Counted from the first letter of the stretch, positions 20,189 to 33,339 are shown. The stretch: 64,000 nt of DNA from Oligoflexales bacterium (GCA_947494335.1 CANLUT010000001.1:1109649-1173648); one strand, 5' to 3'. A program made the numbers and translations. The notes: a model not told the origin generated them from the sequence alone.

Positions 20189-22081
20189 GTGGCCATCGAA
20201 TCCGCAGAACACCTGAGAAATATATGTATTATTGCGCACGTTGACCACGGCAAAACAACATTGGTCGATCACCTTCTCCGTCAAGGCGGCACCTTTCGCG
20301 ACAATCAAGAGGTCGCTGAGCGGGTCATGGACTCCATGGACCTTGAGCGCGAGCGCGGAATTACGATTATGGCCAAGAATACGGCCGTCAAATACGGTGA
20401 TAAAAAGATTAATATCGTCGACACCCCGGGTCACGCCGACTTCGGCGGTGAGGTCGAGCGGATTATGGGCATGGTCAATGGCGCCATTCTTTTGGTTGAC
20501 GGTGCTGAAGGTCCTTTGCCGCAAACACGTTTCGTACTTCAAAAAGCACTTCAGCAAAATTTACGCATTATCCTCGTAATCAATAAAGTTGACCGTCCCG
20601 AGTGCGAAGGCGGTGAGCGTATCCGCGAAGTTCTCAATCAAACCTTTGACCTGTTCGTGGACTTGGGCGCCTCTGATGAGCAAGCTGATTTCCCAATTAT
20701 TTATGCCTGTGCACGTCAAGGCTGGTGTACGACCGATCTCGATGAAATTCCTGCTCTGATCAACGGCACCAAAAAAGGCTCTTTAAAGCCGATGTTTGAC
20801 ACAATTCTAAAAACTGTAGAACCACCTAAGGTCGATTTGGAAGCTCCATTTCGCATGCTGATTTCAAACCTAAGCTACAACGACTTCGTTGGTCAGCTAG
20901 GCATTGGCCGTGTCTTCTCGGGCACTGTTCGTAAAAACCAACCGACCGTTCGCCGTGGTGTCAATGATGCAGACCAGCCACTCGATGAAAACTTTGTGGC
21001 CACTAAAATCTATACCTACGACGGCCTAAAGCAGGTCGAAGTTGATGAACTTCAAGCGGGAGATATTGGTCTAGTTGCAGGCTGCCCCAACTATCAAATT
21101 GGCGACACGCTGACCGCGAACAAAGAAGTTGCCATCATCCCACGAGTCACAGTTGAACCACCTACATTGGCGATGATTTTTTCCATCAACACGTCTCCTC
21201 TTTCTGGGCAGGAAGGCGACGCCATTCAGTCCAGAAAACTGCGCGACAGGCTGGTTAAAGAAACCCGCATGAACGTTGCCTTGAAGTTTGAAGAAACCGA
21301 TCAGCCTGATCAGTTTCGCGTACTCGGTCGCGGTGAATTGCAGTTTGCGGTCTTGATTGAACAGATGCGCCGTGAGGGCAGCGAATTCATGGTGGCCCGT
21401 CCAGCCGTCCTTTATAAGACCGATGCTAACGGTAATCGCTTAGAGCCCGTCGAACTGGCAGTCCTTGACCTACCAGAAGTTTACGCTTCGGATGTGACGC
21501 GTCTATTCCAGGAGCGCCGCGGTATCTTGCAGAAATACGAAAATCAGTCCGTAGCCTCCACTGGTGGAACCTCTCGCGTTCGCCTTGAAATCGAAGTCCC
21601 AACCCGTGGACTATTAGGGATGCGCAGTAAATATCTAACAGCCACAAGAGGAGAGGGGCTCTTCAGCTCACAGCTTCTTGGCTATAAAGATCACCGCGGC
21701 GAGATCATTCACCGAATTAACGGCGCTCTGATTTCAGATCGTGACGGAGAAACCGTAGAGTACGCTTTGTTTAGCGTCGAGGAGCGTGGCAATCTTTTCG
21801 TGGGCCCTGGCGTAAAAGTATACGAAGGCATGATCATTGGTGAACACGCCAAAGAAAACGACCTCAACGTCAACTGTTGTCGGGAAAAGAAATTGACTAA
21901 CGTCCGCGCTGCAGGGGCTGAAATATTGGTAACGCTCCGATCACTTCGCAAGATGAGTCTCGAACAGTATATCGAGTGGATCGAAGACGACGAGTGGATC
22001 GAAGTGACTCCAGAAAATATCCGAATTCGTAAAAAAGTTCTGAAACAAAACCTGAGATCTGTGAAGCGTGAACGCGACTAA
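20189..22081 (+). CDS. typA: Ribosome-associated GTPase TypA/BipA
   Basis: 630 residues with all TypA domains. G1 is [15 protein letters not shown]2 ERGITI, G3 [15 protein letters not shown]4 NKVDRP; then EF-Tu-like domain 2, EF-G-like domains III and V, and the TypA-specific C-terminal domain, including TNVRAAG and [18 protein letters not shown]. TypA binds the ribosome and helps assembly and stress adaptation, especially in the cold. The start is GTG 20189 with AAGGAG 7 nt upstream. The stop overlaps the GTG of the SCO gene by 14 nt, so the two are probably co-translated. It is divergent from the HtdX-like gene. Confidence 0.97.
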
Positions 22082-22688
22082 CGCCAAAAAGAAAGTCATG
22101 CTGATGGTCTATCTCACCATCACTCTTGGCGCCCTAGCCATGTATGACCGGTATTTTGTGGATGATAAGTCACGCTATCAAGGCCTCGTGATGATGAATG
22201 ACAGCTCAGATAAGCTGCCAGATCATGGTCAAATTACGGGTGAGTATGTTTTTACGGATCAAGATGACGAAGACTTTGCAACGAGTCAAATGGCAGGCCA
22301 CGTTTGGCTAGTTAGCTTTTTCTTCACAAGCTGTGATGGACCCTGCCCACTGCTTAACGCTCAAATTGCCGGTATTTTGTCCAAAAATAATGACGTTCAC
22401 GCCCTCTCGATAACGACAGACCCTGAAACCGATACGATCGAGGTTTTGGAAAAATATGCGCAGAGTTTCAAAGCTCGCCGCGAACAGTGGTCTTTCGTAC
22501 GTACTGACCAAGACTCGATGATCAAATTCGGTCAAACAGTTTTAAAGTTACCGGTGGGCGAAGAGCCGGACGCACATTCACTACGTATTGTTCTCATTGA
22601 CAAGGCCGGCCACATCCGCGGCTGGTACGACAGTCAAGAACCAAATGTGGTTGCCACTATCACAAAAGACCTAAAATCCATTCTTTAA
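22068..22688 (+). CDS. SCO1/SenC-type copper chaperone
   Basis: 206 residues with one N-terminal membrane anchor (about 10-26) and a thioredoxin-fold domain outside the inner membrane. The copper ligands are present: Cys89 and Cys93 in TSCDGPCPLL and His170 in PDAHSLRI. SCO proteins deliver copper to the CuA centre of cytochrome c oxidase or act as thiol reductants; no oxidase gene lies in this window, so the partner is unknown. Its GTG start at 22068 lies inside the end of typA, with no independent ribosome site; an in-frame ATG sits ten codons further in. A long palindrome follows the stop after 2 nt. Confidence 0.9.
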   Translation: MNATNAKKKVMLMVYLTITLGALAMYDRYFVDDKSRYQGLVMMNDSSDKLPDHGQITGEYVFTDQDDEDFATSQMAGHVWLVSFFFTSCDGPCPLLNAQIAGILSKNNDVHALSITTDPETDTIEVLEKYAQSFKARREQWSFVRTDQDSMIKFGQTVLKLPVGEEPDAHSLRIVLIDKAGHIRGWYDSQEPNVVATITKDLKSIL

Positions 22689-27136: not shown

Positions 27137-27199
27137 AGTAGGGTGCTCCAACGATGTACTGAGGCACGATTATGGCTTAAATCCAAGGAATTTCCAACT

Positions 27200-27221
27200 A
27201 AAACGGCCCGTTTCCGGGCCG
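27200..27221 (-). terminator. Rho-independent terminator of the redox operon
   Basis: On the minus strand, CGGCCCG and CGGGCCG form a 7-bp GC stem around a GAAA tetraloop, followed by TTTTAG. It lies 28 nt after the stop of the last operon gene (27249). Confidence 0.9.
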
Positions 27222-27248
27222 CTTCATTATCATGATGGATGTCAGTAA

Positions 27249-28277
27249 TTATTGGCACATAGAGCTGAGACCACTCGGCAGACTACCGGAAGAGTTCTTA
27301 ACGACCTTACCAGTTCGATCCACCAACAGGAAGGTTGGCGTCGACGTCACAGAGAAGTTAAACAGACGTCCAAAAGCTGAGTGACCACTGGCGTACTCGT
27401 ATGAATGCGAGGCAGTCCAGCTATTTTGAGAGACAACGTCTTTCCAATCAGACAGCTGATCCGGAGGAATGACGGTCATAAATGTACACTTACCAGAACC
27501 ACTGAATAAAGACTTAAACTGACTGTCGGTATCAAGCCTCTGCGCCATCGTTACACAAGGACCACAGCCAGGCCTCGAAAAGTCAACCAACAGGTACTGC
27601 TTTGAGAAAACCTCAGATAGGGCGATCTCACCAGACCCGGTACCGAGTTTAACATTCAAGTTGGCTGGCAATGCCGCTGGGCCCTGCGTCTGCGGCAAGG
27701 TTTGCGGAGTTGTTTGCGGCGTCGTCTGAGGCGTGGTTTGCGGAGTTGTTTGCGGCATCGTCTGAGGGGTTGTACCCAAGTCAGATACCGTTTGCTTTTC
27801 TGGCAAACCAAGTTTACGACCCGCATCAGTGATCAGAAGTGACAACGATATAGGAATTTTGTCATCTTTGGTCATCTGAGCAGTAATGCGACTAGCTTGC
27901 GCCGGCGCATAGTAGACGTCACTCATTTTGGTCGGCTTTGACACATTATCAAGTTTTCCCAATTCAACAGTGACATCATAGTCACAGCCTTTGCGAATTT
28001 TTTCCTGAATACTTACCAACTTCGTGGCAACGATATATTGCTTGATCTTTGTCGCTTCAGGGCAAGCTGCGTCAACCGGCGCAATCATCAGGTGCATACC
28101 GTTGACTGGCTTTGAGCCATCGGACGCTACGAGCGTTTCAACAGCCGGAAGCTTCACGTTTACGCTAGAAACGCGACTCGCCGTACCACGCATGTCACTT
28201 GAATTGTAGGCGGGCACGCAGGAGACAACCATCATCAAAGATGCGAGCACACCCATTCCTGTAACGTTATAGAACAT
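27249..28277 (-). CDS. Thioredoxin-fold lipoprotein (CGPC) with TPQT-repeat linker
   Basis: 342 residues from ATG 28277 with GGAGG 5 nt upstream; a longer frame has no ribosome site. Lipobox VVSC gives lipidated Cys20. Residues about 30-170 are an unrecognised domain, then a TPQT repeat linker, then a TlpA/thioredoxin domain with active site Cys238-Gly-Pro-Cys241 (SRPGCGPC) and the cis-Pro loop TSTPTF. It is therefore a membrane-tethered thiol-disulphide enzyme in the periplasm or at the outer membrane. The start overlaps the end of the barrel gene by 11 nt. It is the last gene of the five-gene unit. Whether it reduces or oxidises cannot be judged; CGPC is typical of reductases. Confidence 0.85.
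   Translation of the reverse strand: MFYNVTGMGVLASLMMVVSCVPAYNSSDMRGTASRVSSVNVKLPAVETLVASDGSKPVNGMHLMIAPVDAACPEATKIKQYIVATKLVSIQEKIRKGCDYDVTVELGKLDNVSKPTKMSDVYYAPAQASRITAQMTKDDKIPISLSLLITDAGRKLGLPEKQTVSDLGTTPQTMPQTTPQTTPQTTPQTTPQTLPQTQGPAALPANLNVKLGTGSGEIALSEVFSKQYLLVDFSRPGCGPCVTMAQRLDTDSQFKSLFSGSGKCTFMTVIPPDQLSDWKDVVSQNSWTASHSYEYASGHSAFGRLFNFSVTSTPTFLLVDRTGKVVKNSSGSLPSGLSSMCQ
27688..27771 (-). repeat. In-frame 12-nt tandem repeat coding TPQT units
   Basis: About seven degenerate copies of a 12-nt unit (plus strand GTTTGCGGAGTT-like) code for TPQT/MPQT/LPQT in the linker of the CGPC lipoprotein. Length variation would keep the frame and change the reach of the thioredoxin domain. Confidence 0.8.
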
Positions 28278-29301
28278 ACTTACCTCCAATTCCAACATGA
28301 CCAATCAACGAATCCGACTCGGTGCTTTGATAACGACCAAGAAATCCAAAAATCTCAGACACATTTTCTGTCACTGGCCCTGTTACATGACGCCAGCGCA
28401 GACGCAACTGGGAGGAACTCGAATTTCTATCAATGGTGGGGGACTCGATCGATCTTGGCGTTTCCGTTTCCCAATGTAAACGATGTACCACGGCACCAAT
28501 CCAACGATCAGAAAGATGCTGGTGCAGCTGTCCCTCGACACCGCGGCCACGGATTTGACCGTAGTCAGTGTTTTGCTTGACCCCATGGCGGTCATTTTGT
28601 GCCGCTAGTTTCAAATGAATGGCTGTACGGGTCTCTGATAAAAAGTAACGGCCTTCAACACTACCGGAATCAGCAACAGGACGATCTGAGCTCGTTGATA
28701 GGGTGCCTCTCGCCATCATCATGGCGTAGGTTGTCGCTAGCCAGGTTACGCCTAGCGTGTAGTTTTTACCAGAAATGTGGGCTGGGGTGATAACCCGCAG
28801 GCCGTCCGTATCCATGTAGTCGCGAACTTTACGCTCGGTTCCTGATTGGGTGACCTCAAGTGTCGTGAGAATCGTGGCCTTGTTCCACCATTGACCGCCA
28901 CGAATGGACATGTAGCGATTCATCGTTTTGCCTGTATTCGTAGCCAGACTGTATCCATAGGACGCGCCAATGGTGGTCAGCTGATCAATCGTCTGGTCAA
29001 CGTTAACGCTGCCCCTTCGCTCGAGCGTTAGCATGTCTTTGCCATACGCGTCTGGCCCATATGATTCTAAAAGAGTTTGTTGGACCATGATCTGGGTGGA
29101 GTACCCAGATTCCGCAAGGTGATCACCCGTGTGCATCACACTTGTAGTTGCGAGAGTGTCTTTATATTTGGATCCGACAAAACGCGTGGCAGAGGCGTCA
29201 AATACTGTTTCATTTAAAGCCATGGCAGTGGGCTGCCAAGCCATAAATAAAGCCGTGCTCACGGTCGAGATTTTACCGGCAAGTCGGGCAAGCACTACCA
29301 C
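28267..29301 (-). CDS. DUF3570-like predicted outer-membrane barrel protein
   Basis: 344 residues from GTG 29301, 5 nt after a GGAGG; GTG 29295 is nearly as good, and a longer frame to 29334 would overlap the DUF4266-like gene more. The signal peptide (about LARLAGKISTVSTALFMAW to TAMA) is clean. The mature part alternates polar and aromatic residues in repeated strands ending GIGGKYVL, as expected for a transmembrane beta barrel. The position directly after a DUF4266-like lipoprotein is the usual place of DUF3570 proteins, although similarity by eye is modest. It may form a channel for the substrate of the neighbouring thioredoxins. It overlaps both neighbours, so coupled translation is likely. 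Confidence 0.65.
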   Translation of the reverse strand: MVVLARLAGKISTVSTALFMAWQPTAMALNETVFDASATRFVGSKYKDTLATTSVMHTGDHLAESGYSTQIMVQQTLLESYGPDAYGKDMLTLERRGSVNVDQTIDQLTTIGASYGYSLATNTGKTMNRYMSIRGGQWWNKATILTTLEVTQSGTERKVRDYMDTDGLRVITPAHISGKNYTLGVTWLATTYAMMMARGTLSTSSDRPVADSGSVEGRYFLSETRTAIHLKLAAQNDRHGVKQNTDYGQIRGRGVEGQLHQHLSDRWIGAVVHRLHWETETPRSIESPTIDRNSSSSQLRLRWRHVTGPVTENVSEIFGFLGRYQSTESDSLIGHVGIGGKYVL

Positions 29302-29491
29302 TGCTACCTCCACCGGAAATGGACGAACGTTCATATTTCACAGCAGCATTACTGATAGCAGCATCGGACATGCTACCCGTTTTTGCTGGATCCATGGTCG
29401 GATCTAGCAAATGACCTTTATTGAGCGAAATGCCTGGGTAAACACACCCAGTAAGACTCAATACAACTGCGATCGTGAGCAAATACTTCAT
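29273..29491 (-). CDS. DUF4266-like short lipoprotein ending in a CxxC tail
   Basis: 72 residues: lipobox LTGC with Cys16, then KGHLLDPTMDP, a motif typical of DUF4266 (Lys-Gly-x-Leu-x-Asp-Pro-x-Met), a short helix, and a Gly/Ser-rich tail ending ACPTCR. DUF4266 proteins usually end in a Gly/Cys tail, so the last residues are probably functional, as a redox pair, metal ligand or modification site. ATG 29491 has AAGGTG upstream. It lies 6 nt after the CTGC thioredoxin gene and overlaps the barrel gene by about 28 nt. Confidence 0.75.
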   Translation of the reverse strand: MKYLLTIAVVLSLTGCVYPGISLNKGHLLDPTMDPAKTGSMSDAAISNAAVKYERSSISGGGSSGSACPTCR

Positions 29492-29497
29492 GTCGAC

Positions 29498-29998
29498 TTA
29501 AGCACCTTTCTTTAAGAGGCTTTCAAGTTCTTGCTGCGAGGGGTGCCCCTTAAATCGCTTAAGAATCGTCCCGTCCTTTTTGGCAACGATCACATACGGC
29601 AAACTGTCTACTTTGGATGCTTCAGCGAAATACTTGCCAGAGTCATCCAAGTAGGATTTTGAAAGGGCAAATTTGGCCGCGTCAGGTTTATTGGCAAAAA
29701 ACTTAAGAGCCACATCTTTGGTCTCATCAAGTGAGACCGAAACATATGCTACCTTCGGAAAGCTTTCGAGCGTCTTGCCGAGTTGGCTCATAACCGTACC
29801 GCATCCAGTGCACCAGGACGCCCAGAATTGATAGATCACGAGGTCACCCTTATCAACACCGGCAAGCTGACCGGAGCCTGACAGGGCTGGAAGAGGCTTG
29901 GAAGGCTTGGCAAGCTTATCGCCTGCGGCGAACGTATCACTAGCCGAAATAAGTAATCCAAGTGCTAAAACAAAGGATGAAAGCGATAAATTTTTCAT
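29498..29998 (-). CDS. TlpA-like periplasmic thioredoxin (CTGC)
   Basis: 166 residues. A normal signal peptide ending TFAAG exports it in soluble form. The thioredoxin domain has active site Cys63-Thr-Gly-Cys66 in FWASWCTGCGTVM, the usual KDVALKFF helix and the cis-Pro loop DSLPYVIV. TlpA/ResA-type proteins keep periplasmic cysteines reduced, for example for cytochrome or copper-centre assembly. ATG 29998 has GGAG 9 nt upstream. It is the second gene of the unit, 30 nt after the CESC lipoprotein gene. Confidence 0.9.
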   Translation of the reverse strand: MKNLSLSSFVLALGLLISASDTFAAGDKLAKPSKPLPALSGSGQLAGVDKGDLVIYQFWASWCTGCGTVMSQLGKTLESFPKVAYVSVSLDETKDVALKFFANKPDAAKFALSKSYLDDSGKYFAEASKVDSLPYVIVAKKDGTILKRFKGHPSQQELESLLKKGA

Positions 29999-30028
29999 AA
30001 GTTGTTACTCCGTGAGGTCAGACAAGAA

Positions 30029-30610
30029 TTACTGATTCAATGCCTTGGCAACAGCGGCTTCAACACCTTTATAGGCTTCATCTTGATTCAAAATCTGACC
30101 CTTGCCATCTTTGGCAACCAGAATGTACACACCAAAATACTGAGTCGTCTTGGATCTAACTTTCTTAATCACTGCAAGACTGTCATCTATGACGTAAGGC
30201 GCACTTGCCGCATAGGTTCTAGTAAAGGTTGAATATTCCGCTGCCGTATACTCAGAGGCTTTGTTTGGGAAAATTACCATGCGACTGACTTTAGAGCCGT
30301 ACTTGGAAAGTACGGAGGCTACATAAGGTCCCTCAGTTTTGCAGGACTCGCAGGTCACACCAGCAAATTGAAAAACAGTTAAATCAGCGGTGGACTTGGC
30401 TGCAATCGAAGCCAAAGACACCATACCTGAACCTTGAAGAACCATGAGTGATGATGCGCCAATATCAGCCAGGGACGATGTTTGGTTGTTCTGCTGAGTC
30501 GTCGTATTCGTTGGAGGTTGTGGGCGATTTCCCGAGTCCTTGGCAGCTGGAGGCTGGCAACTAACTAACATCGAGATCAAAGACGCGTGCATAGCCAGCT
30601 TAATCAACAT
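30029..30610 (-). CDS. Thioredoxin-like lipoprotein (CESC)
   Basis: 193 residues. Lipobox LVSC gives lipidated Cys18, followed by a Pro/Thr/Gln linker and a thioredoxin-like domain with Cys87-Glu-Ser-Cys90 in FAGVTCESC. The usual Trp before the first Cys is replaced (GVTC), and the cis-Pro loop is unclear (VYILVAKDG), so activity may differ from a standard TlpA; a redox sensor or metal-binding role is possible. ATG 30610 has AAGGAG 8 nt upstream. It is the first gene of the redox unit, so the promoter lies in the gap to ppk1. Confidence 0.75.
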   Translation of the reverse strand: MLIKLAMHASLISMLVSCQPPAAKDSGNRPQPPTNTTTQQNNQTSSLADIGASSLMVLQGSGMVSLASIAAKSTADLTVFQFAGVTCESCKTEGPYVASVLSKYGSKVSRMVIFPNKASEYTAAEYSTFTRTYAASAPYVIDDSLAVIKKVRSKTTQYFGVYILVAKDGKGQILNQDEAYKGVEAAVAKALNQ

Positions 30611-30963
30611 AACTCAATCTCCTTTGCTTTGGACTTTGGTTTAGTGTTGGCAACACCAAGAAACCTTGGAGCAATAAATGTTCCAGACCAACCTCGGGTC
30701 GCAACCCCTAATAATCAATGCCTTTGGCAACTTGCACACCCCAAACCAGCCGTCAAAAGCTTTGACAGTGTCAATCCCGAAGGCTAATGCGGCTCGTGGG
30801 CTTGATTTTGACAAAAGACATCTTAAGTTAAGAATATCATGGCAGTGCCCCTAGACCACGGGGTAACTTCTACCCACGGACAACTGCAGTGTATGTGCCT
30901 TACAATCATAAGGAGAGACCGGGAGGCGTTTGCCCCCTATCAGAGCATCGGAGGCTCGCTAAT
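30611..30963. other. Divergent intergenic region between redox operon and ppk1
   Basis: About 350 nt with no convincing gene; short frames on both strands lack ribosome sites. It must carry the promoters of the redox operon (minus) and ppk1 (plus). No Pho-box or other operator was recognised. The sequence from 30889 is open in the ppk1 frame but probably leader. Confidence 0.4.
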
Positions 30964-33339
30964 ATGTCGGATAGACAAGCGGCTGAAAAATCAGCCGAAA
31001 AAATTTCGGATCGGTCCACAGAAAAACCGTCTGTTGAACCTGCGGCAGGTATGCACGAGCCGGCCCCTCATCAGACCCACGCAGCTGTCCCAATAAGGTC
31101 CGCGCACCTCTCGGCTGCCGCCAGTAGGCTAGCCAAGATCCACACAGAGCGCTACCTGAACCGAGAGCTTAGTTGGCTTGAGTTCAACTCTCGCGTTTTG
31201 GAAGAAGCCTTAAACCATTCTGTTCCCCTGCTTGAGCGCCTCAAGTTTGTCAGCATCTTCATGGGTAACCTCGATGAATTTTTCATGGTGCGCGTCGCCG
31301 GCCTGCGCAAGATGGTTCAGGAGGACATCAAATCAGGAAGTGATTCACCCGACGAACTACCGGGAGAAGAGATTCTTGCACAAATTCGTCTCCGGGTTCT
31401 GGAGATGACCGGGATTGCCTATGATGCACTTCTCCACGACATCCTTCCGGCACTTTCTAACGAAGGAATTGAAATCGTATCGGTAACGCAGCTGCCGGCA
31501 GATGCAAGGACAAGCTTGGCGCAGTACTTTAGTGACAACGTACTTCCTGTTCTCACGCCCTTGGCGGTAGATCCGGCCCACCCATTTCCATTCTTAACCA
31601 ATCTCGCCCAGTATCTTGTGGTGCTATTCAAAGACGTCAACTACCACAGCCAGCTGGGAGCGCCACCAATCGGGCTCGTGGAAATTCCGTCTGTATTACC
31701 ACGTCTAATTCCGGTCTCATGGAAGACTGACAAAAAACAGTTTGTACTGCTCGAGGATCTGGTCAAAGCCAACATCGGTAAGCTTTTTATGGGATACGAA
31801 CTGGCTGACGCGCATCCTATTCGTGTGACCAGAAATCTTGACTATACACTGCTTGAAAACGAAGTGGTCGACTTACTAAAATCCGTTCAGCGCGAGCTCA
31901 CCAATCGTGAACACCAAGAGGCAGTGCGACTTGAACTCGGCGGAAAGCTCCCCAAAAGTGTCATTGAAATATTAAAGCGTGAGCTACATGTGACAAATAA
32001 GGAGATCTACGAGTCTCCAGAACCCTTGCTGATACCTGGTTTGATGACGCTTTACCATCTGCCGATGCCAAACCTGAAAGATCCTGCGTTTAACCCGCGT
32101 CTGCCCATGCAGATGATGAGTAACGAGGATCTATTTGCCCTGATCAGTCGCGAAGATATCCTGTTACACCATCCCTACGACAGCTTTTACCCGGTCGTCG
32201 AATTGCTTCAGATTGCGGCTCACGATCCAAACGTACTGGCTATCAAGCAGACCCTTTACCGAAGTGGCGGTGACAGCCCCATCATCGAAGCTCTGATCGC
32301 TGCGGCAGAAAACGGCAAACAAGTCACCGTGGTGGTTGAACTAAAAGCTCGATTTGACGAGAAGAACAATATTTCTTGGGCGCGCCGTCTAGAGCGCGCC
32401 GGCGTCAACGTGGTATTCGGATTTATTGGTTTAAAAACACACGCCAAAGCCACGCTAGTTGTGCGCCGAGAGGGCAACAAACTCGCACGTTACGTGCACT
32501 TGTCGACGGGAAACTACAATTCAAATACGGCAAAACTTTATACGGACGTGGGGTTTTTCAGCGCTAATCCAGACCTGGCTGATGACGTTGGGCAGCTATT
32601 CAACATTTTAACGGGCTTTAACATTCTGACTGGCGAGGCAAAGCTACGTAGAAAGCACATTGTCCCCAACCTAAAAAAGCTCCTCATCGCACCGATTACC
32701 TTGAGGCCAAGACTGCTTGATATGATCAAGCGCGAGATCCAGTTCAAAAAAGAGGGCGGAAAAGCCGGTATCATCATCAAGGTCAACGCAGTAACCGACA
32801 AAGAACTCATTGATGCGCTGTACGAAGCGAGCCAGGCTGGTGTCGAGGTTCACCTGATCGTGCGCGGCATGTGCTGCCTGCGCCCTGGAGTCAAAGGACT
32901 ATCTGAAAACATTTACGTGACATCGATCATTGACCGTTTTCTCGAACACAGTCGTATTTACTTCTTCTATGCCGGCGGCAAAAAGGAAGTTTACATGGCA
33001 AGTGCCGACATGAGCCCTCGTAACATGGATCGAAGGGTCGAAGTTTGCTTCCCGCTCGAGTCTAACGATGTCAAAGAGCATGTCACCAACCACATCTTGG
33101 CCACCTATCTTTCCGATAACACCAAGGCCTGGCTACTGTGCCCAGATGGCAGTTACATCAGGCGCCAGCGCGGAAGCCATGAAAAAGAAGTCAGATCGCA
33201 GCAGAAGTTCATTGAGCTGGCCCGTGACTACGGCATCAAATCGATCCCGTACGAAATGGCCATCCGCCACAACACGGTTAAGGAAAAAGGCACAAGACCT
33301 GTAGCCAAATCAAAGAAAACCCAAGTCAAAGACCACTAA
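30964..33339 (+). CDS. ppk1: Polyphosphate kinase 1
   Basis: 791 residues from ATG 30964, which has GGAGG 9 nt upstream; the frame extends 25 codons further without a ribosome site. The enzyme makes inorganic polyphosphate from ATP at the membrane. The core begins RYLNRELSWLEFNSRVLEEA, with DEFFMVRVAGL; the autophosphorylated His is His493 in GLKTHAKATLVVRR, followed by HLSTGNYN. RPGVKGLSENIYV and MSPRNMDRRVEVCFPL are the usual C-terminal motifs. An N-terminal extension of about 60 Ala/Ser/Glu-rich residues and a Lys-rich tail are extra to the family's 690-720 residues. No ppx or Pho genes are adjacent. Confidence 0.95.
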   Translation: MSDRQAAEKSAEKISDRSTEKPSVEPAAGMHEPAPHQTHAAVPIRSAHLSAAASRLAKIHTERYLNRELSWLEFNSRVLEEALNHSVPLLERLKFVSIFMGNLDEFFMVRVAGLRKMVQEDIKSGSDSPDELPGEEILAQIRLRVLEMTGIAYDALLHDILPALSNEGIEIVSVTQLPADARTSLAQYFSDNVLPVLTPLAVDPAHPFPFLTNLAQYLVVLFKDVNYHSQLGAPPIGLVEIPSVLPRLIPVSWKTDKKQFVLLEDLVKANIGKLFMGYELADAHPIRVTRNLDYTLLENEVVDLLKSVQRELTNREHQEAVRLELGGKLPKSVIEILKRELHVTNKEIYESPEPLLIPGLMTLYHLPMPNLKDPAFNPRLPMQMMSNEDLFALISREDILLHHPYDSFYPVVELLQIAAHDPNVLAIKQTLYRSGGDSPIIEALIAAAENGKQVTVVVELKARFDEKNNISWARRLERAGVNVVFGFIGLKTHAKATLVVRREGNKLARYVHLSTGNYNSNTAKLYTDVGFFSANPDLADDVGQLFNILTGFNILTGEAKLRRKHIVPNLKKLLIAPITLRPRLLDMIKREIQFKKEGGKAGIIIKVNAVTDKELIDALYEASQAGVEVHLIVRGMCCLRPGVKGLSENIYVTSIIDRFLEHSRIYFFYAGGKKEVYMASADMSPRNMDRRVEVCFPLESNDVKEHVTNHILATYLSDNTKAWLLCPDGSYIRRQRGSHEKEVRSQQKFIELARDYGIKSIPYEMAIRHNTVKEKGTRPVAKSKKTQVKDH

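Follow-up and report, generated by a model that had tools for sequence, protein, structure and literature searches.

A conserved cluster of three thioredoxin-like proteins, a small CPTC lipoprotein and an outer-membrane barrel as a possible flavin-free redox module in Oligoflexales-like bacteria

Results

We analyzed a 64,000-nucleotide stretch of DNA from an Oligoflexales bacterium (GCA_947494335.1, CANLUT010000001.1:1109649-1173648; hereafter the window, with positions counted from its first letter) and concentrated on five minus-strand genes that run as a tight unit from 30610 to 27249 (Table 1). These encode a thioredoxin-like lipoprotein (Trx1), a soluble TlpA-like thioredoxin, a small lipoprotein with a C-terminal CPTC pair, a predicted beta-barrel and a two-domain thioredoxin lipoprotein (Trx5). 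A first-pass annotation, made from the window sequence, had described a head-to-tail unit of this kind closed by a textbook terminator, and both observations are borne out: all five open reading frames (ORFs) are present with their motifs, the intergenic distances from gene 1 to gene 5 are +30, +6, -23 and -11 nt, and a GC-rich hairpin with a U-run follows. The distances hold for the starts that we chose for the barrel and Trx5, which differ from those of the longest ORFs and are preceded by GGAGGT just 5' of GTG 29295 in the barrel, whose Shine-Dalgarno sequence falls within the Gly/Ser-arm codons of the upstream small lipoprotein, and by the context GGAGG-TAAGT-ATG at 28277 in Trx5. Separate internal promoters, which had been named as a sign against a single unit, do not stand out: promoter-like sites across the region number 7 versus 4.3 expected (standard deviation 2.3), not above chance, and the sole one on the coding strand inside the unit is a 9/12 match at 27952-27925.

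Table 1. Features of the five-gene unit, with positions in the window
Feature	Position	Strand	Details
Trx1, thioredoxin-like lipoprotein, CESC	30029..30610	-	lipobox ..MLVSC-Q
TlpA/ResA-type soluble periplasmic thioredoxin, CTGC	29498..29998	-	Sec signal, Thioredoxin_8 match
Small lipoprotein, 72 residues, ending CPTCR	29273..29491	-	lipobox, Gly/Ser-rich arm
Outer-membrane beta-barrel, predicted	28267..29295	-	start GTG 29295; listed ORF begins ATG 29334
Trx5, two-domain lipoprotein, CGPC	27249..28277	-	start ATG 28277; listed ORF begins TTG 28304
Intrinsic terminator, CGGCCCG-GAAA-CGGGCCG then TTTTAGTT	27196..27221	-	-21.6 kcal/mol, 7-bp G+C stem, GAAA loop, U-run

The core of this unit is inherited together. 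Independent searches with a barrel profile over 58 genomes of the phylum and with a lipoprotein profile over 43 genomes of the order matched the same 13 of those 43 genomes, all inside the order and Oligoflexales-like. Public records of relatives carry the labels Pseudobacteriovorax or Oligoflexales metagenome-assembled genomes (MAGs). Most relatives are draft MAGs, and the identities of flanking genes in them were mostly judged by eye. At every locus where the contig continues (21/21) the small CPTC lipoprotein adjoins the barrel; a 22nd barrel sits at a contig end (L022), and the CPTC gene of the same genome lies at another contig end (L042). A TlpA-type gene stands beside the pair at 19 of the 21, the exceptions being L015 (genome G012), where it is absent, and L020 (G011), where a contig end is nearby. 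The identical five-gene order occurs only in one genome of the same genus (L013); other loci have gene 5 in divergent orientation (L017, L018, L019, L023), in first place (L021), fused to Trx1 (L024, L025) or not at all (L014). Linkage recurs in several genera, whereas relatives that never link these genes would, by the first-pass annotation, have told against the unit; the view of one conserved redox and outer-membrane unit is upheld. As a separate observation, one stretch (L062:4390-6053, G034 contig 3) carries a Trx1-Trx5 lipoprotein pair, with no barrel or CPTC gene within the stretch read.

The barrels and small lipoproteins fall into two versions. Their trees show the same A/B split, with support of 1.0 in both and largely similar subgroups, as is expected if barrel and lipoprotein evolve as a pair. 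Version A is the type of the window; the window genome carries both, its version B paralogue lying outside the window (G000 contig 1, about 1,055,816-1,059,342; L039:5817-9343). Version B is ordered as barrel, CPTC lipoprotein, a 570-630-residue lipoprotein (about 580 residues in the window genome) and a TlpA-type gene, the large lipoprotein having many cysteines besides its two CxxC pairs. Among its eight copies the order of the last three genes is constant and the position of the barrel slightly variable. Beside version B clusters of the window genus (L026, L039, L040, L041) we also observed a protein that begins with MIT(N/H/T)V(S/N)APCLL and by eye resembles AlgH/YqgE.

The closest published clusters combine DUF3570, DUF4266, thioredoxin and ApbE genes, often with DsbD; for one DUF3570 protein, flavinylation at two [S/T]GA[S/T] sites has been demonstrated, and the DUF4266 tail is CXC (PMC8238504). 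In the open literature a single paper names DUF3570 or DUF4266. In our unit the lack of ApbE, already remarked on in the annotation, extends to the whole window genome (3.34 Mb, 97% complete), to all ten genomes of the family and to 10 of the 13 module-bearing genomes. Where ApbE genes occur elsewhere in the order, the contexts read place them mostly with an Nqr operon by eye (L043-L047, L049-L051) and none with the module. The unit encodes no heme protein either.

The small lipoprotein has about 57 residues when mature and comprises, in order, a lipobox, Lys, an LLDPxMDP motif, Glu, the Gly/Ser arm and CPTC, its C-terminus being GSSGSACPTCR. CPTC is invariant: it lies at the C-terminus of all 21 small lipoproteins, followed by one to three residues. 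The label DUF4266-like, given to this protein at first reading, survives in part. The window protein has no Pfam match to PF14086 (DUF4266), the best relatives score 17-19 bits and the version B consensus reaches 20.1 bits (E 0.0013) over positions 2-47 of the 50-position profile, all short of the 27-bit cut-off. The trait of a small lipoprotein with a Gly-rich tail is present, but the tail is CXXC, not CXC, in 21/21. What stands is a remote similarity, from which a distant DUF4266 relative below the cut-off is plausible. The tail also gives weak zinc-ribbon matches (E 0.2-0.35). A PF14086 search of the phylum genomes found no member, and a genome-contig scan using the window lipoprotein alone found no match; the same scan with alignment A3 returned seven loci, in Oligoflexales-type or proteobacterial MAGs and all already among the relatives, although beyond the phylum it amounts to one short peptide pattern that would miss distant members and sets no limit on the range of the module. 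A DUF4266-type consensus matches PF14086 at 1.1e-25 but nothing in plasmids.

The three thioredoxin-like proteins carry the three different active sites that had been noticed from the start (CESC, CTGC and CGPC), each conserved as a class among relatives. That of Trx1 is C-x-[S/T]-C, with the CxxC invariant throughout the linked family. The usual cis-Pro is replaced by Gly in the window Trx1, and most relatives have Gly, Ala or Asn there (alignment A4), a loss that might permit metal binding. The window Trx1 matches Redoxin only at E 0.11 and one relative does so at 1.7e-4; matches to the Trx1 profile below 1e-15 are restricted to genomes with the barrel. The TlpA-like protein matches Thioredoxin_8 at E 4.6e-10, and its cis-Pro residue (P134) is invariant. 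Trx5 consists of an N-terminal beta domain, a TPQT-repeat linker and a C-terminal ResA/TlpA-like thioredoxin domain with the CGPC site, and its predicted model resembles ResA/DsbE/TlpA. Genes 2 and 5 exceed the Thioredoxin_8 / Thioredoxin_2 cut-offs with invariant CxxC and Pro, which makes them TlpA/ResA-type proteins. The tandem repeat of the Trx5 linker (window 27690-27780) is possibly variable in length among strains. Residue +2 of the lipoproteins is Gln in Trx1 and Val in both the small lipoprotein and Trx5. Under the E. coli Lol rule, a +2 residue other than Asp points to the outer membrane, so all three would be expected there; the suggestion that the lipid-anchored enzymes sit on different membranes finds no support. 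The window genome encodes a single DsbD.

The AlphaFold model of the barrel has 16 strands (mean predicted local distance difference test score 84.5); a signal peptide and an even strand number are both present, as in outer-membrane beta-barrels. The top Foldseek matches are general outer-membrane barrels (query template modeling score about 0.3-0.6) with no specific relative among them, and a sequence search of the PDB with the barrel profile returned nothing. The window barrel contains no cysteine, and none is conserved in relatives. The [S/T]GA[S/T] motif is absent from the window barrel and appears as one stray copy each in 2 of 17 barrels, none conserved. Nor could the DUF3570-like label be kept: PF12094 (cut-off 25 bits) matches neither the window barrel nor anything in the 43 order genomes, and 17 relatives plus consensus sequences remain below the cut-off at E about 0.066-0.09 over 29 residues. 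With the facing of residues assigned from alternation and hydrophobicity, not coordinates, conservation is higher toward the lumen than toward the lipid (p = 0.002), and R229, R285, E289 and E291 are charged residues assigned to the inside. A conserved surface site was considered and dropped, extracellular and periplasmic conservation showing no significant difference (p = 0.20).

Upstream of the unit lies a divergent gene (30889-33339) that looks by eye like a polyphosphate kinase, and downstream a FabH-type gene follows on the same strand. Elsewhere in the window, about 4.6 kb from the unit, we observed a SCO1/SenC-family protein on the plus strand (22068-22688).

Discussion

We put at about even the chances that these five genes form one outer-membrane thiol redox module, free of flavin, in which electrons would flow from DsbD to the CPTC pair. 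In this proposal, electrons would pass from the cell's single DsbD to the soluble TlpA-like protein and on to Trx1 and Trx5, both anchored in the outer membrane and facing the periplasm; from there they would reach the CPTC cysteines at the end of the small lipoprotein. The flexible arm of this lipoprotein, 57 residues long, would swing as a shuttle that docks to the 16-strand barrel or is threaded into it, and the barrel, having no redox group of its own, would be a sheath or port where the CPTC arm meets its target, for which an extracellular disulfide or a metal ion are candidates. The direction of the flow, the docking of the arm and the terminal substrate are the parts that we infer.

In layout the unit is akin to the published DUF3570/DUF4266/thioredoxin clusters, as the first-pass annotation had proposed, and gene content supports this by type (PMC8238504). 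Both have a small secreted protein whose C-terminus bears a pair of cysteines, thioredoxin-like proteins, a barrel-type partner and DsbD as the likely electron source. Here, in contrast, there is no ApbE and no flavinylation motif, the pair is CPTC instead of CXC, PF12094 misses the barrel, the thioredoxin-type proteins are three and DsbD is unlinked; because of the unreached PF12094, the CPTC tail and the missing motif, the module falls outside that kind of system by barrel family, tail and flavinylation alike. It looks like a version of the DUF3570/DUF4266 envelope redox systems that does without flavin and runs on thiols alone, working in a similar way, and may share ancestry with them or descend from them. 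Other known systems resemble parts of the module. The MtrCAB and PioAB conduits likewise have a barrel that ensheathes a distinct redox carrier crossing the outer membrane, a likeness that holds if our placing of the arm is right; the unit, however, has no heme carrier, its carriers being thiols, and the MtrB_PioB profile finds no match in the 43 order genomes. Genes 2 and 5 share fold and CxxC with TlpA, ResA and CcmG (DsbE), but belong here to an outer-membrane module with no linked genes for the assembly of cytochrome c or oxidase. As in RcsF-OmpA and similar pairs, lipoprotein and barrel would be partners at the outer membrane, although no sequence relation is known and the arm here is tipped by a redox-type CxxC.

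Several observations weigh against the proposed electron flow. DsbD is unlinked to the module and present in 41 of the 43 order genomes, which makes it uninformative as a correlate and leaves its role assigned by default. Substrate or acceptor genes show no conserved linkage to the module. In G012 (L015) barrel and CPTC gene stand without adjoining thioredoxins, beside a metallo-beta-lactamase-fold protein, and in G020 (L014) the last thioredoxin gene is missing. The swinging of the arm is a prediction from its residues, and CPTCG also looks like half a zinc knuckle.

This last resemblance leads to the main rival, that the CPTC tail binds metal. The tail would then coordinate a soft metal (Cu, Zn or Fe) and the barrel would be a channel for metal or metallophore, while the thioredoxins would keep the ligand cysteines reduced; TlpA plays this part for the Sco and oxidase subunit II copper sites, and the cis-Pro of thioredoxins, which hinders metal binding, is absent from Trx1 in the window and in most relatives. 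Together with the knuckle shape, the weak zinc-ribbon matches and the presence of the VIT1 iron transporter in 25 published DUF3570 clusters (PMC8238504), this makes metal handling possible, if doubtful. Three separate thioredoxins, however, exceed what keeping one CxxC reduced would need, the histidines in the barrel lumen are not strictly conserved, and no recognizable metal transporter or regulator recurs beside the loci read, for which ORF listings were used and not all flanks were searched against family libraries. We find it unlikely that the genes serve envelope maturation, with thioredoxins and small lipoprotein assembling or repairing other outer-membrane or surface proteins and the barrel as client or partner. 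Such a role has a counterpart in LptM, a small lipoprotein that promotes the oxidative maturation of a barrel (compare LptD; PMC10567701), and TlpA/ResA/DsbE-like folds often serve maturation; but the absence of barrel cysteines excludes the barrel's own oxidative folding as the purpose, and a pairing found in 13 of 43 genomes is patchy, unlike a general need.

A genuine DUF3570 system, flavinylated by an ApbE encoded outside the cluster, would agree with the resemblance to ApbE-linked clusters (PMC8238504) and with the distant DUF4266 similarity, yet it is contradicted by the genomes of the window and its family, which have no ApbE, by the separation of ApbE from the cluster in the contexts read elsewhere in the order, by the lack of a conserved [S/T]GA[S/T] in the barrels and by the silence of PF12094 in 43 genomes, so that we hold it to be very improbable. 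We can hardly credit, finally, that everyday periplasmic thioredoxins came to lie by chance beside a porin with no relation to them. Taken singly, the thioredoxins belong to common types, but the cluster is kept across other genera at low protein identity, rearranged and fused with its content nearly constant, which contradicts chance.

Electrons are known to reach or cross the outer membrane by heme, in Mtr-type systems, or, as has been proposed, by covalent flavin, in ApbE-type ones. A bolder form of the thiol redox module, in which barrel and lipid-anchored CPTC swinging arm would make up a thiol-disulfide conduit through the outer membrane and bring reducing equivalents from DsbD to the cell surface without heme or flavin, is in our judgment rather unlikely; if true, it would be a third chemistry beside the porin-cytochrome and ApbE-flavin systems. 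The module would also ease the testing of the poorly understood DUF3570/DUF4266 systems since, with flavin missing here, the remaining parts should be their core. For Oligoflexales-like bacteria, in which the redox biology of the envelope is almost unstudied, it provides a small and testable set of genes.

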